This document shows, in pieces, positions 42,015 through 49,443 of a stretch of DNA of 64,000 nt. Source of the stretch: Planctomycetota bacterium (GTDB taxonomy: Bacteria > Planctomycetota > Phycisphaerae > Phycisphaerales > UBA1924); the NCBI GenBank assembly GCA_017303555.1, contig JAFLCN010000011.1:62001-126000 (forward strand). The letters are read 5' to 3'. Position numbers and translations under genes: made by a program. Under the pieces are notes generated by a model. It ran no database searches and was not told the DNA's origin. It saw only the letters and a list, made by a program, of their open reading frames with translations. Within the stretch, counting starts at the first letter, position 1. Each line of letters opens with the position of its first letter.

Positions 42015-42806
42015 TTACCCCTTCGCGGAAGATCGGGACGAGCGCTTCGCAGGTTTCTTCCCCTTCGAAGGCTTCTTGGTTGCTCCTGCCGCGGCTTGTT
42101 CCGCCAGAACCGGTGGCGGAAGTTCGGGGGGGGAGAAATCGGGCAGGTCGGCGCGTCGTTCGCGCCGGGGAGCAGCGCCCTGGTCGTCCGACCACGCCTG
42201 AAGCGTGAGCGCAACGGAAGTCGCATCGCCCGCTCGAATCTGACGCTCGAGCCAGGACGCGGCGCTGTCCGCATCTGTTACGTCGTCGCCGAGCACCGCC
42301 TCGGAAGCGAGCAGATCGGCGATGCGCTGATCGACGGGAATGGCATGCCCGCCGAGGCCGAGCGAGAGGACGCGTGCCGCGACGTACGCCGGCGTGCCGT
42401 CGATGGAATCGAGGTAGGTGCGGGCTTCCCGCTTGGAAAGTTCGGTCAGGCTCGCGAGCGAGAGCGAATGTTCCCGCCGGAAGATGTCGTGCAGGCTCGA
42501 CCGGAGGCGGAGGGCCCGTTCGTAGCCGCGCGGATATCGCTCGCCGAACGCCGCGGCAATCTCGTCCGCGAACGCAATCCGGAGTTCATTGTAATCGACA
42601 AACGTTTCGCGGATCCGCTTGAGCGCCGCGCGTGCCTGGCCCGTCGAAGCATCCCAAAGCAGGAAGGAATACACGAACAGGTGCAGCATCGGGTCGACAC
42701 CCTCGTCCACGCCCGCCGTGAGAGGCTCCGCCTGCTGTTCGCCATAGCGGTTGGCGAGCTTCTTGAGCAGCGCCTGGAGAAGTTTGGCCGGATCCTGCGA
42801 ACTCAT
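42015..42806 (-). CDS. Degenerate HhH-GPD (endonuclease III-like) protein
   Basis: 263 residues. Helical throughout; IDGTPAYVAARVLSLGLGGHAIPVDQRIADLL aligns (in outline) with the helix-hairpin-helix and the catalytic-Asp segment PVDTH of endonuclease III: the Asp is kept, but the HhH glycines/Lys (GVGRKTA) are not, and no [4Fe-4S] cysteines follow. So it looks like a non-glycosylase member of the fold. A Lys/Ser-rich tail (TKKPSKGKKPAKRSSRSS) ends it. Its ATG overlaps the rbfA stop by 4 bp, so it is translationally coupled to rbfA. Confidence 0.72.
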   Translation of the reverse strand: MSSQDPAKLLQALLKKLANRYGEQQAEPLTAGVDEGVDPMLHLFVYSFLLWDASTGQARAALKRIRETFVDYNELRIAFADEIAAAFGERYPRGYERALRLRSSLHDIFRREHSLSLASLTELSKREARTYLDSIDGTPAYVAARVLSLGLGGHAIPVDQRIADLLASEAVLGDDVTDADSAASWLERQIRAGDATSVALTLQAWSDDQGAAPRRERRADLPDFSPPELPPPVLAEQAAAGATKKPSKGKKPAKRSSRSSAKG

Positions 42807-43795: not shown

Positions 43796-46660
43796 TCAGA
43801 GCGTGCGCTTCACTTCGACCTGCTTGTAACACTCGAGCACGTCGCCTTCCTTGATGTCGTCGTAGCCCGCGATCTTCATGCCGCACTCCATGCCGGCGCG
43901 AACTTCCTTCGCATCGTCCTTGACACGCTTGAGCTGCTCGAGCTTGCGATCGTTCTCGACCACGACGCCGTTTCGCGTGACGCGGATGAGCGCGTCGCGC
44001 TGCACGATGCCGTCGGTGACATAGCAGCCCGCGATCGAGCCGACCTTGGTGACCTTGAAGACCTTGCGGACTTCGGCGTGGCCCAGGATCTCCTGGCGGA
44101 GTTCCGGAGCGAGCATGCCTTCGGCCGCCTTCTTCAGATCGTCCACGATGTCGTAGATGACCTGATAGGTGCGGATTTCGACGCCCTTCTGCTCGGCCAG
44201 GCTGCGTGCCTTGCCCGACGGAATGACGTTGAAGCCGATGATGACCGCCTGCGAGGCCTGCGCCAGCAGCACGTTGCTCTCGGTGATGCCGCCGATGGCG
44301 GATTCGAGCACACGAACTTTGACTTCCGGCGTGCTGACCTTCTCGGCCTGGCTCTTGAGCACATCGAGCGTGCCCTGTTCCGCCGCCTTGATGACCACGC
44401 GGATTTCCTTGATACCCGCATCGGCCATCTGGGCGAACATGTTGTCGAGCGTGAGCTTGGGCTGCGCGAGTTCGGTTTCGCGTTCGCGATGGCGACGCTG
44501 CTCGGCCGCTTCCTGCGCCTTCTTCAGCGAATCGACCACGTAGAACTTGTCGCCCGCCGTCGGAACTTCGTCGATGCCCGAGATCTGCACCGGAGTGGGG
44601 GGCGTGGCTTCCTTGATCTTCTTGCTGCGATCGTCGGTGATGTCGCGGATGCGACCGAACGCACGCCCGGCGACGATGTAGTCGCCCACCTTGAGCTTGC
44701 CCTGCTGGACCAGGATGTTCGCGACCGCACCGCGGCCTTCTTCGGTCCTTGCCTCGATGACCGTGCCCCGTGCCGGACCGTCGAAGTCGGCCTTGAGTTC
44801 CAGCAGCTGCGCCTGGTAATCGAGCGTTTCGAGAAGCTCCGGAATGCCCTGGCCCGTTGTCGCCGAAGTCTTGATCACTTCGACGCTGCCGCCCCATTCC
44901 ACCGGGTTCAGATCGTTTTCCGCCAGGCGACCAAGCACCTTCTGGACCTGCGCCTCGGTCGCGTCCGGACGATCGATCTTGTTGAGCGCGACCACGATCG
45001 GCACCTTCGCGGCCTTGGCGTGGTTGATGCTCTCGATCGTCTGGGGCATGACGCCTTCGGGCGCCGACACGACAAGCACGACCACGTCGGTCATGTTCGC
45101 GCCGCGTGAACGCATGCTGGTGAACGCCTCGTGGCCCGGGGTATCCAGGAAGACGACTTCCTTCTTTTCGCCCGCTACTTCGAGGCCCACGCGGAACGCG
45201 CTGGTGCGCTGCGTGATGCCGCCCGCTTCGCCCGCCGCCACGTTCGCATTGCGGATCTTGTCGAGCAGGCTGGTTTTGCCGTGGTCGACGTGCCCGAGGA
45301 TCGTGACGATCGGACCGCGCGGACGCAAATCCATCGCGACGCGATCGGCGAACTGCGAACTGACCACTTCTTCCGCCGACTTGGCCTCGGTCACTTCGAG
45401 ATCGACATCAAAGTCGATCATGATCTCCTGCGCCTTCGCCGGATCGATGCCCGAATTGATCGTGGCCATGATCCCTTCAAGGAACAGCTTCTTCACGATC
45501 TCGGCGCCCTTGACGCCGGTCGCTTCCGACAAATCCTTGATCGTGAACGGGGCCGCGATGCGGATCTTGCCCTCGGGCTGCATCTCCGCATCCGCGTGAT
45601 GCTCGGTGCGCTTGAGATCCTGGCGACGCTTCTTGAGGAAGCCGCCCGACCGTGCAAGCCGCGCCTCGCGCTCGATCAGATCCTGTTCTGAAAACACCCC
45701 GCTCGTGCCGCCGACCCATTCCTGGCCGGAACTTGCTCGCCGACGCTGCGGCACGCCGGTACCGCTCGACCGCTTCGAGCCCGCAGCGCCGCTCCCGCCT
45801 CCGCTGCTCCCCGCTCCGCTCGACTTGCGCCGCGGACTGCGGCCGCCGTCGTCCTCACCCTGCGCCGGGCGCGGTCCGCCCGTGCCGGTTCCGCCGCCCG
45901 GGCTGAAGCGGCGGGGGCGCGGTGCGTCCATCACTTCGGCCGCTTCGATTCGAACAACCTTCGGGCCTGAAAGCTTGACCGGAGTCTTCACTTCCAGCTT
46001 CGGACCGGCGGGCGTCACGCTCGCCGGACGCGTCGGCACGTTGACCGGTGCCGGCTGCACGCGCGTCGGACCGAGCACCCGGGGCGGGCTGGGCGGGTGA
46101 TGAGGAGCCGGGGCAGGTGTCGGATGCGAGCCCGAATCGGGCCCGGCCTTGGGCGGTTCTGGAGCCTTCGGCGTCACCACGGCCGGTGCGGGCGCCTTTG
46201 CCGCGGGCGCAACCGGGACCGGAACTGGCGTTGGGACAGGAAGCTCGGGTTCCGGAGCGGCCTTGATCACAGCCGGAGCCGGACGCGGCTTGACGATCGG
46301 AGATTCGGGTGCGGGGGTTGGCGACGTGTGCGGGACCGATGGTGCCGGAACGGGCGGCGCAGCGACGGCCGTGCCTCCGCCAACGTCGTCGGACTCGCCA
46401 TCTGCTTTCTTGCGCTTCTTGGGCGTGGTCTTCTTGGCGGTCGAGATGTCCACCTTCTCGGCCGTCTCGATCGCTGTGGAAGAAGCAGCGTGATCGCTGA
46501 ACCACTCGCGGATGGTGGCTTCCAGACCCGCGCTCACGGCGGACTGATAGTTCTTGATCACGGCCTCTTCGATTCCCTCGGCGTGGCACTTCGCCACGAT
46601 CACCTTGGAATCGACGCCGATCTCTTTCGCAATCTCAAATACGCGCTTCTGCTTGGCCAA
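43796..46660 (-). CDS. infB: Translation initiation factor IF-2
   Basis: 954 residues. IF2-N module at 1-60 ([20 protein letters not shown]), a long Ala/Pro- and Gly/Arg-rich linker (about 65-320), then a second IF2-N-like module and the G domain: G1 GHVDHGKTS (about 455), G3 DTPGHEAF, G4 NKID. Domains II-IV follow, ending [18 protein letters not shown]-2 brings fMet-tRNA to the 30S subunit. The low-complexity linker reads PAPAP/GGGSG-type sequence. 90 bp separate it from nusA. Confidence 0.97.
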
Positions 46661-46750: not shown

Positions 46751-48109
46751 TCACGAACCCTGACCGAGGATGTTCGCGGCCCGGGCGTCGCCCGACGATT
46801 CCGACGCGGCGCCGAGGATCGCGCTTGCCGCGGCATCGCCGGCGGTGCCCGCTTCGCCCGCGACTCCGCCCTCGGAGAGCAGCTTCGCTGCCGTCGCGGC
46901 GTCTTCCCGTGCCTTGCGTTCCTTTTCTTCCTTGTCCTTCTGCTGCTGTTCGGCGACAACCTTGGCCTTGGTCGAGCAGGTGGTGACCACTTCGGCGGCC
47001 TTGGCCTCGTCGATCTCGAGTTCGGTCATGAGCACCTCGGCGCCCACTTCCTCGATGTCGAAGACGCTCACCATGCCGAGCGCCGCGAGCTTGTCGGCCA
47101 TCTGCTCGGTGATGCCCTCGACGCTCTGCACCGTCTGGTACATCGTCTCGACGCCCTTGGTGAACTCCTCGGGAGTGAGGATGTCGATATCCCAGCCGGT
47201 GAGGCGGGCCGCGAGGCGGACGTTCTGGCCCCGCTTGCCGATCGCGAGCGAAAGCTGGTCGTCACGCACCACAACCGTGGCGCGCCCGAGCTCGAAGCAC
47301 AGGCTGATTTCCTGGACTTCCGCTGGCTTCAGCGAATTCTGGATGAGCACCTGGCTCGATTCGTTCCAGCGGACGATGTCGATCTTCTCGCCGTTGAGTT
47401 CATCGACGATGTTCTTGATGCGCGAGCCCTTCACGCCCACGCACGCGCCGACGGCATCGACCTTGTTGTCCATGCTCGAAACCGCGAGCTTGGTGCGGTA
47501 GCCGGCTTCGCGCGCCATCGCCTTGATCTCGATGATGCGCTCGGCGACTTCGGGCACTTCGACCTCGAAGAGCCGCTTGATGAAGTCCGGGTGGCTCCGG
47601 CTCAGAACGATCTTGATCTGGTTGCCGACGTCGCGGACGTCCAGGATCAGACACCGCACGCGATCGCCCGCATTGAACTGCTCGCCGGGGATCTGCTCGG
47701 AGCGCGGCATGAACGCCTCGGCGCGGTCGATCGTGACGACGAGGGCGCCGCCCTCGTACCGCTGGGCTGTCCCGACGGCGATCTCGCCGACGCGCTTGGT
47801 GAACTCTTCGAAGATGCTCGAACGCTCATCGTCGCGGAATTTCTGGATCATCACCTGCTTGAAGGTCTGCGCCGCGATGCGACCGAACGCCGCCGGAGTC
47901 ATCTCGAGCGGCGCGCCGTGCCGCGTCATCGTCAGGTTGCCCGTCATCGGGTCGAGCGTGCAGGTGAACTCTTCGGCGTCGAGCGTGTTGAAGTGCTTCT
48001 TCGCGGCAGAGACCATCGCAAGTTCAAGATCGCGGATCAGAACCGAGCGATCGATGTTGCGATCGCGGGCGATGGAGTCGAGGATGCGGAGCATTTCGGT
48101 CGTGTTCAT
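46751..48109 (-). CDS. nusA: Transcription termination/antitermination protein NusA
   Basis: 452 residues. N-terminal RNA-polymerase-binding domain (1-125), S1 (about 130-200), two KH domains (about 225-345; GACVGVKGSRIKNIV, LSLAIGKRGQNVRLAARLTGWDIDI in part), then a helix-hairpin-helix region (VEGITEQMADKLAALG) and a charged Ala-rich tail. NusA modulates pausing, termination and rRNA antitermination. rimP, which usually precedes nusA, is absent here. Upstream lies a ~470-nt leader with a promoter, hairpins and a terminator (see 48312-48615). Confidence 0.96.
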   Translation of the reverse strand: MNTTEMLRILDSIARDRNIDRSVLIRDLELAMVSAAKKHFNTLDAEEFTCTLDPMTGNLTMTRHGAPLEMTPAAFGRIAAQTFKQVMIQKFRDDERSSIFEEFTKRVGEIAVGTAQRYEGGALVVTIDRAEAFMPRSEQIPGEQFNAGDRVRCLILDVRDVGNQIKIVLSRSHPDFIKRLFEVEVPEVAERIIEIKAMAREAGYRTKLAVSSMDNKVDAVGACVGVKGSRIKNIVDELNGEKIDIVRWNESSQVLIQNSLKPAEVQEISLCFELGRATVVVRDDQLSLAIGKRGQNVRLAARLTGWDIDILTPEEFTKGVETMYQTVQSVEGITEQMADKLAALGMVSVFDIEEVGAEVLMTELEIDEAKAAEVVTTCSTKAKVVAEQQQKDKEEKERKAREDAATAAKLLSEGGVAGEAGTAGDAAASAILGAASESSGDARAANILGQGS

Positions 48110-48174
48110 GGTTCAATTCCTTCTGTGCCTGGATGTCTGCGCCTGGTTGTCAGGTTGTCAACTTGTCGAGCCGA

Positions 48175-48311: not shown

Positions 48312-48358
48312 AAAAACACCGCGGGCCACCGGCGGCAAGCTCTGCCACCCGTGGCCCG
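48312..48358 (-). terminator. Intrinsic terminator in the nusA leader
   Basis: On the minus strand CGGGCCAC and GTGGCCCG (8 bp), a G/G mismatch, then GGTGGCA and TGCCGCC (7 bp with one G-U) close a GAGCT loop; CGGTG and TTTTT follow. About 200 nt before the nusA start codon. Confidence 0.65.
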
Positions 48359-48580
48359 GGAACGAGGCGTCACCGCAAGTGGCGGCTTCAACTCATGCGG
48401 AAGATTCCTCCGCACGAGCCGACCGGCGAACGGTCCGCCCAATCCTGCTGCCGCGGGTTTGAACCCGAGGCCACGGGGTTGGAACGCTTACCGAGCATGA
48501 TTGCCAGCCGTCTGCATGACGCTTCATCCCCGGACTTTCCGCGTCCGGCAACATGCCGACCGAGAAAAGCCGAACAAAGG
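48312..48580 (-). ncRNA. Candidate small RNA or attenuated leader of nusA (~270 nt)
   Basis: Between the promoter at 48587-48615 and the terminator at 48312-48358 the minus strand can form, in order: CCGGAC/GTCCGG (48530-48548), CGGGTT/AACCCG (48454-48467), GACCG/CGGTC (48421-48435), TGCGGA/TCCGCA (48396-48414), CCGC/GCGG (48373-48385) and the terminator hairpin. No open frame of quality lies inside. It matches no RNA family I can recognise (not tmRNA, SRP, RNase P or a tRNA). Either an independent RNA or a nusA leader with premature termination. Confidence 0.5.
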
Positions 48581-48586
48581 CCCGCC

Positions 48587-48615
48587 AGTATAGCTGAGAG
48601 CACTCAAACTCTCAA
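48587..48615 (-). promoter_or_regulatory. Sigma70-type promoter upstream of the nusA operon
   Basis: Minus strand: TTGAGA, 17-bp spacer, TATACT; each box differs from consensus at one base. Predicted start near 48580, giving a ~470-nt leader before nusA. Confidence 0.7.
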
Positions 48616-48708
48616 ATGCGGGCCCGGCGGTCCTGCGGGCCGAAGGCTGTCGCTTTGCCCCACCGAACGCTGATTCAAGCGGGAGATACGGGTCGGGCCG
48701 ATGCCGTG

Positions 48709-49443
48709 ATGTCCGGAATTGGACGCGGAGGATTCCGGTTGGCCCCCCAGCATGTGCGGAAACAAACCCGTTTGGCGATCGCGCTCGCGATGGTGGCGGG
48801 GTATGTGGACGGCTTTGGCCTGCTGAAATTCAGCACGTACCTCTCGTTTATGAGCGGCAATACGACGCAAACCGGCGCGAACCTGGGGCGGGCCGCCTTT
48901 GGGCTGGCAATCCCTTCCGCCATCGCGATCGGGGCGTTCCTTGCGGGGGTCATTCTGGGCAACCTTTGGAGCCGCCCCGAAAAGCACGCCCGAACAGTTT
49001 TTCTGATCGTCGGCGTGACGCTCGGAATCACGTGCGCGGGGTTGAGAATGCTCCTGCTCGATCCGTTCCCGGCGATTGCGATCGTGGCCTGCTCGATGGG
49101 GCTGATGAACACCGCGTTTTCGCGCGTCGGGAACGAGCCGGTCAATCTCACCTTTGTGACCGGGGCGCTCAACAAACTCGGGGGTCATCTCGCCCGGGCG
49201 GGGAAGGGTCTGCCCCTGAATGGCGCGATGGGTGACTGGGACACGCACGCGGGAAGAGCCGCTTTGCTCGCGTCGATCTGGGGAGCGTTTCTGATCGGGG
49301 CCGTCCTCGCAGGAATTGCGACCGGTCTGCTCGGCGATTGGACGCTGCTGGTGCCGGCGCTCGCCGTCATCGGGGTTGGCTTGTTTTTGGGAGGCACGGA
49401 AGCCGGGCCAAGCTCCGCGGCCGACGCAAACTCCCCGGATTAG
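48709..49443 (+). CDS. DUF1275 (YoaK-type) membrane protein
   Basis: 244 residues with six predicted membrane helices. AGYVDGFGLLKFSTYLSFMSGNTTQTG is the DUF1275 signature (quoted within: YLSFMSGNTTQTG), NTAFSRVGNEPVNLTFVTGAL is its second conserved block. Function is unknown across the family. The start at 48709 gives a short basic N-terminus before the first helix; earlier in-frame codons overlap the nusA promoter. It is convergent with fliM, with 7 bp between the stop codons. Confidence 0.85.
   Translation: MSGIGRGGFRLAPQHVRKQTRLAIALAMVAGYVDGFGLLKFSTYLSFMSGNTTQTGANLGRAAFGLAIPSAIAIGAFLAGVILGNLWSRPEKHARTVFLIVGVTLGITCAGLRMLLLDPFPAIAIVACSMGLMNTAFSRVGNEPVNLTFVTGALNKLGGHLARAGKGLPLNGAMGDWDTHAGRAALLASIWGAFLIGAVLAGIATGLLGDWTLLVPALAVIGVGLFLGGTEAGPSSAADANSPD

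Follow-up and report, generated by a model that had tools for sequence, protein, structure and literature searches.

A probable translated transcription attenuator with three small coupled reading frames in the nusA-infB leader of Phycisphaerales

The nusA-infB leader and its distribution

The window, the whole 64,000-nt stretch of Planctomycetota contig JAFLCN010000011.1 that was analysed, carries a nusA-infB operon on its minus strand, with rimP not present between the leader and nusA. Read along this strand, a promoter is followed by a folded leader of about 270 nt, an intrinsic terminator and the two genes. The leader contains three small open reading frames, called ORF1, ORF2 and ORF3, and the features are arranged as follows.

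48587..48615, minus strand: sigma-70-type promoter TTGAGA-17-TATACT, assigned by consensus match and conservation
48488..48517, minus strand: ORF1, ATG CAG ACG GCT GGC AAT CAT GCT CGG TAA (MQTAGNHAR*)
48388..48498, minus strand: ORF2, 36 codons (MLGKRSNPVASGSNPRQQDWADRSPVGSCGGIFRMS*)
48407..48411, minus strand: Shine-Dalgarno (SD) sequence GGAGG of ORF3
48388..48396, minus strand: ORF3, the two-codon frame ATG AGT TGA (M-S-stop), whose stop codon is common to ORF2
48312..48357, minus strand: intrinsic terminator GGGCCACGGGTGGCAGAGCTTGCCGCCGGTGGCCCGCGGTGTTTTT, GGGCCAC...GTGGCCC and then an interrupted T tract, GCGGTGTTTTT
46751..48109, minus strand: nusA (NusA_N, S1 and KH domains), with its start ATG at 48109
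43796..46660, minus strand: infB (IF-2), directly after nusA

A preliminary description of this DNA had the layout of promoter, hairpins and terminator right, and overlooked the chain of small reading frames that is its defining feature. The near-consensus promoter that it placed at 48587-48615 matches the consensus at 10 of 12 positions, with one such site found against 0.2 expected from shuffled sequences, and its spacing is conserved as TTGAnn-17-TATACT in most of the seven members of the genus. Further, 50 of 73 genomes with an ORF chain have a site with at least 8 of 12 matches no more than 140 nt from ORF1, compared to 0.8 in shuffles. Transcription would be expected to start at about 48580. 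On the plus strand, a divergent gene of the DUF1275 family occupies 48616-49443; its longest reading frame opens right at the -35 box of the leader promoter, and the gene probably begins at a more internal position, near 48709. On the other side of the operon, downstream of infB, ARAGORN predicts a tRNA-SeC with a TCA anticodon (42158-42238, minus strand), for which Rfam has no gathering-level match.

The terminator hairpin with five T residues, described as lying about 200 nt before nusA, was likewise recovered: at 48357-48312, two 7-bp blocks separated by one mismatch are followed by T5, and 202 nt lead from there to the nusA ATG. It is conserved in the seven genus members. Across 77 ORF3-bearing genomes, automatic placement locates an intrinsic terminator with a median energy of -21.5 kcal/mol, at median distances of 50 nt after the ORF3 stop codon and 90 nt before nusA. 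The stems read GGGC...GCCC in family f8 and GCCACG...CGTGGC in most other families.

The segment is single-copy and precedes nusA in all seven genomes of the genus, and a nucleotide search finds no match to it beyond the genus. For a wider comparison, the DNA upstream of nusA was collected from further genomes at the levels of family, order and class; named records assign the relatives to Phycisphaerales or Phycisphaerae. Inspected by eye, nearly all family members share one plan, though their sequences are barely alignable: a short ORF, a variable stretch, GGAGG-ATG-NNN-stop, and a GGCCACG...CGTGGCC terminator. Between a small RNA and an attenuator, the two options of the preliminary description, the attenuator leader fits best, on the evidence of the single copy before nusA throughout the genus and of the architecture recurring across families. 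The other option, a stand-alone regulatory RNA whose terminated transcript of about 270 nt acts in trans, would be consistent with the segment's own promoter, own terminator and strong fold; the fixed position before nusA within the genus and again in other families, an upstream flank that differs among genus members, and a leader body that varies freely outside the ORF signals and the terminator all argue against it, leaving it without support and quite improbable. Overall, we estimate a probability of roughly 0.7 that the segment, as the 5' leader of nusA-infB, is a translated transcription attenuator, and the comparison makes it likely that such leaders extend over the Phycisphaerales and near relatives.

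Geometry and coding content of the three reading frames

In the window, ORF2 opens with an ATG placed 8 nt before the ORF1 stop codon, giving an overlap between the 3' end of ORF1 and the start of ORF2, and ORF2 runs in frame with ORF3, which ends about 30 nt upstream of the terminator. The ORF1 stop codon itself varies within the genus (TAA, TAG or TGA). To score ORF3 elsewhere, the rule was an SD, an ATG, one sense codon and a stop codon within a fixed zone from -420 to -80 relative to nusA. This arrangement is present in 71 of 98 genomes, compared to 1.3 ± 1.1 in dinucleotide shuffles (maximum of 5) and one on the reverse strand. The rule was shaped on this first set and was applied unchanged to a second, non-overlapping collection of 57 loci, where 36 have it, compared to 0.7 in shuffles (maximum of 3) and none on the reverse strand. 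These rates cover families f1-f6, f8 and f21; families f9, f11 and f14, which belong to other orders and have essentially no SD-ATG-NNN-stop before nusA, were dropped after an initial look. The shuffle statistics ignore phylogenetic relatedness, and the pattern spans several families as well as the second collection. As a control on real DNA, equal-size windows of non-leader sequence from the same loci contain the arrangement in 18 of 3207 cases. The spacing between SD and ATG is mostly 5-10 nt (n = 107 genomes), as for a two-codon minigene. A recognisable ORF3 is absent in about 30% of the examined genomes. Seven other SD-ATG-NNN-TGA sites occur in the window's own genome, and those inspected are mostly within longer ORFs.

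The upstream pair recurs as well. With the upstream DNA randomised and ORF3 held fixed, an ORF1/ORF2 overlap in frame with ORF3 is expected in 2.7 and 1.6 genomes of the two collections; it is found in 55 of 71 and 20 of 36, respectively. When every out-of-frame offset from the ORF1 stop to the ORF2 start is scanned, +8 (ATG NNNNN stop) occurs in 50 genomes, +1 (ATGA) in 21 and -2 (the TGATG type) in 7, with every other offset in at most 3; the ORF1 picked in a single genome can be wrong, above all at +1, the offset with the largest chance expectation (about 2). Offsets of +8, +1 and -2 are typical of translationally coupled genes. Since unlike lineages use different offsets, the comparison suggests that coupling between ORF1 and ORF2, rather than any one offset, is the thing that is kept. 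As a separate arrangement, the genus labelled g24 (genomes L058, L060, L061 and L064) has a single longer leader ORF in place of the ORF1/ORF2 pair, which reaches as far as ORF3 and has an ATGA overlap with the ORF3 start.

The peptides themselves behave differently from the frames. Changes in ORF2 fall about evenly on the three codon positions, with counts of 130/136/129 in the window's genus and 41/40/39 in one from another family, and 232 differences are nonsynonymous compared to 38 synonymous ones; even so, the lengths of ORF2 are always multiples of three. Since the frame is kept while its peptide is not, selection appears to act on the position of the ribosome and not on the peptide product. 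Similarly, the SD of ORF3 occurs in each of the three frames with respect to its ATG, and is therefore conserved as an SD and not as a Gly-Gly peptide. The rival that ORF2 is a small protein gene, with ORF3 merely the conserved C-terminus of that protein, would explain why most genomes have a long open frame with an in-frame ATG near its end. However, third positions show no excess of change, the nonsynonymous differences far outnumber the synonymous ones, the SD of ORF3 is not tied to one frame, a Pfam search returned no match, and genome G003 keeps ORF3 although the ATG that starts ORF2 elsewhere is there out of frame with it. Accordingly, we regard a protein-coding role as very improbable indeed.

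ORF1 carries a conserved tail (H/N-x-R/G) that is largely imposed by the overlapping ATG of ORF2, and runs of control codons are found in neither ORF1 nor ORF2, whose peptides vary. In f8, another family of the class (genomes L113, L114 and L115), the N-terminus of ORF1 is conserved (MYIDLNRVHLFETGETGRNLTA), in contrast to the order, where the ORF1 peptides are free-running; it could be a stalling peptide.

Leader folding and the search for an antiterminator

The 271-nt segment folds at -149.2 kcal/mol, compared to -119.5 ± 4.8 kcal/mol for shuffled sequences (z of -6.2), and across 50 genomes the leaders have a mean z of -3.1, with 80% below -2. What the preliminary description had counted as five smaller hairpins is better described as one 5' hairpin and a closed multi-branched element. 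Three elements of this fold are considered further.

48518..48535, minus strand: 5' strand of the long-range helix P1, over the ribosome-binding region of ORF1, with genus-level covariation
48354..48371, minus strand: 3' strand of P1, which shares positions with the terminator foot, with genus-level covariation
48388..48422, minus strand: hairpin sequestering the SD and start codon of ORF3 in the genus, from the predicted fold and genus covariation

In the genus consensus fold, 93.6% of cells are paired, and 9 pairs have changed on both sides, compared to 3.7 ± 1.5 in shuffles and 2-5 when the partner is slid; for P1 alone, 92% of cells are paired, with 3 compensatory pairs. The predicted unpaired fractions are 0.10 for the ribosome-binding region of ORF1, 0.02 for the SD of ORF3 and 0.65 for the ORF2 start, which is comparatively accessible. 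The proposed check, conservation of the paired segments in relatives, comes out positive within the genus, by covariation; outside it, the same long-range pairing is not general: pairing between the 5' leader and the terminator foot is clear only in the genus and in some members of two other families.

These observations bear on the reading of the leader as a ribosome-mediated attenuator with a true antiterminator, in which P1 would form when ORF1 is untranslated and lower termination, and which would let low initiation raise NusA and IF2. The near-complete pairing of P1 within the genus, its compensatory pairs, and similar long-range pairing in several other genomes speak for it; the overall signal is weak (t of 2.1; duplex z of -0.66 ± 0.21), and within the window the terminator in its complete form is more favourable than the full P1 helix by 7.3 kcal/mol. 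As a result of this energy difference and of a pairing that is not general, P1 could serve as an antiterminator at the level of the genus only, and the reading is unlikely as an account of the leader as a whole. A general antiterminator was not found, as duplex tests against the 5' arm of the terminator, the stretch that follows ORF3, and the 5' leader gave an overall signal that was weak or null. Moreover, a ribosome modelled at ORF3 or at ORF1 leaves the predicted terminator unchanged. Averaged over genomes, pairing near ORF3 shows a modest tendency of the SD to pair 8-19 nt downstream.

Terminators also precede nusA in families of the class that do not have the ORF chain (f11, f14 and others), which suggests that the attenuator may predate the chain. 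In addition, interruptions are common in the U tract (TGTGTTTTT), as in NusA-stimulated terminators. Both facts, and the antiterminator that was looked for and not found, would fit plain NusA autoregulation, where the terminator alone responds and the ORFs do no more than shield the leader from nucleases or Rho, sensing nothing. In B. subtilis, attenuation of nusA is stimulated by NusA (PMC12288461), and protection of mRNA is one published reading of minigenes (PMC8708949). On the other hand, conservation of the coupling geometry and of the two-codon frame extends across families at a level far above chance, and protection alone would need neither. This explanation deserves to be taken seriously, while falling somewhat short of even odds; NusA autoregulation through the leader terminator is in itself plausible.

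Known leaders and a proposed mechanism

The RNA had been said to resemble no known family, and the searches agree. Rfam covariance models give no gathering-level match in the segment, and the rimP-leader model has no match even at an E value of 10. Two local resemblances were followed up and rejected: RNase P RNA, suggested by GGAAAGTCCGGG, is encoded in full on another contig, and tmRNA, suggested by the T-arm-like CGGGTTCAAACCCG, is located in full elsewhere in the genome. 6S RNA has no match anywhere in the genome, and a sub-threshold match to ilvB-OMG (17.8 bits where 95.9 are needed) was taken as chance.

Naville and Gautheret (2010, PMC2965389) described rimP-leaders as terminators before rimP-nusA-infB with neither a larger conserved element nor an antiterminator; NusA autoregulation was proposed for them, and in many bacteria an attenuator for which no sensor is established stands before the nusA-infB operon (PMC2965389). 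The present leader resembles them in having a terminator ahead of an operon with nusA and infB and no general antiterminator. The arms of the rimP-leader are G-rich on the 5' side and C-rich on the 3' side, and the window's stem likewise begins with GGGC and ends with GCCC; the window's stem loosely fits the GGGc...gCCC pattern, family f8 shows GGGC...GCCC, and most other families have the GCCACG...CGTGGC type. It differs in that rimP is not in the operon, the leader is longer, Rfam gives no match, and a larger conserved element, the ORF1-ORF2-ORF3 chain, is present.

In trp-type leaders, a short translated ORF lies ahead of the regulated gene. The topAI uORF is another translated leader ORF, in a case of uORF-controlled transcription (PMC12121999). 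The present leader likewise has a predicted translated ORF before the terminator, here by comparative evidence only. It differs in having no control-codon run, no conserved stalling peptide and no antiterminator conserved across genera; where the trp-type antiterminator is exclusive with the terminator, P1 covaries in the genus, the general signal is weak and the energy favours the terminator. We know of no leader ORFs described for the B. subtilis nusA leader. That leader shares with the present one an intrinsic terminator, at which NusA-stimulated termination provides autoregulation (PMC12288461, citing Mondal 2016).

Closest to ORF3 are the two-codon minigenes in leaders, such as axe-txe mg2 and that of ler in LEE1, which also combine an SD with ATG-NNN-stop; they act in cis, and with a strong SD, ribosomes re-initiate on them without leaving (PMC8708949). 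Those minigenes affect the translation or stability of the next gene (PMC8708949), while the minigene before nusA lies upstream of a terminator, ends a chain of coupled ORFs and is conserved across families. The literature searched, which covered few subscription papers, contains no description of such a three-ORF nusA leader. The leader thus appears to be a new variant, an addition to the known nusA and rimP-leader attenuators, and no other two-codon ORF deeply conserved in a bacterial transcription attenuator is described within that literature, which would make ORF3 the first.

In the mechanism proposed here, transcription would start at the conserved promoter and meet the conserved intrinsic terminator 40-210 nt before nusA. 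As the leader is synthesised, ribosomes would load on ORF1 and pass to ORF2 by coupling, with the overlap between the ORF1 stop and the ORF2 start providing a geometry that would favour termination-reinitiation; at the M-X-stop of ORF3, with its strong SD, they would terminate or idle by re-initiation. The presence or absence of a ribosome at that point, about 30-75 nt upstream of the terminator, would then decide how frequently RNA polymerase reads through into nusA-infB, and the leader would report the capacity for translation initiation and termination and set the supply of NusA and IF2. As in B. subtilis, the terminator may also be a direct target of NusA. The response could take either sign: a nearby coupled ribosome could suppress termination, or, with P1, the absence of a ribosome on ORF1 could do so.

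The leader with its three tiny coupled ORFs probably serves as a switch through which protein synthesis controls the levels of NusA and IF2, proteins whose genes stand at the junction of transcription and translation. A more specific proposal, which is tentative and rather doubtful, is that ORF3 acts as a dedicated gauge of the capacity for translation initiation or recycling, where ribosome idling on M-X-stop sets termination before nusA-infB in an IF2-dependent feedback. If true, IF2-dependent initiation would feed back onto the synthesis of IF2 and NusA in the whole order. The three coupled ORFs, the last of only two codons, may be the attenuator's sensor throughout the order and in a few relatives outside it; in that case, the matching of NusA and IF2 to translation capacity becomes testable through mutations of their start and stop codons.

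Between the terminator and nusA lies a further element.

48132..48167, minus strand: GACA(A/T)C repeats ahead of the nusA start, with an 8-nt period typical across relatives

In relatives, such repeats lie in the final ~110 nt upstream of nusA and keep a strict period of 8 nt: of about 75 spacings, 39 are 8 nt and 7 are 16 nt. In family f1 they average 1.5 per genome, compared to 0.06 in control windows. The repeats could be bound by NusA or by a different RNA-binding protein. Distinct from them, tandem arrays of the heptamer GACATCC occur on contigs of the window's own genome, at C1:36768-36843, C2:55808-55862, C6:7284-7324, C41:148736-148769 and C42:14263-14310.
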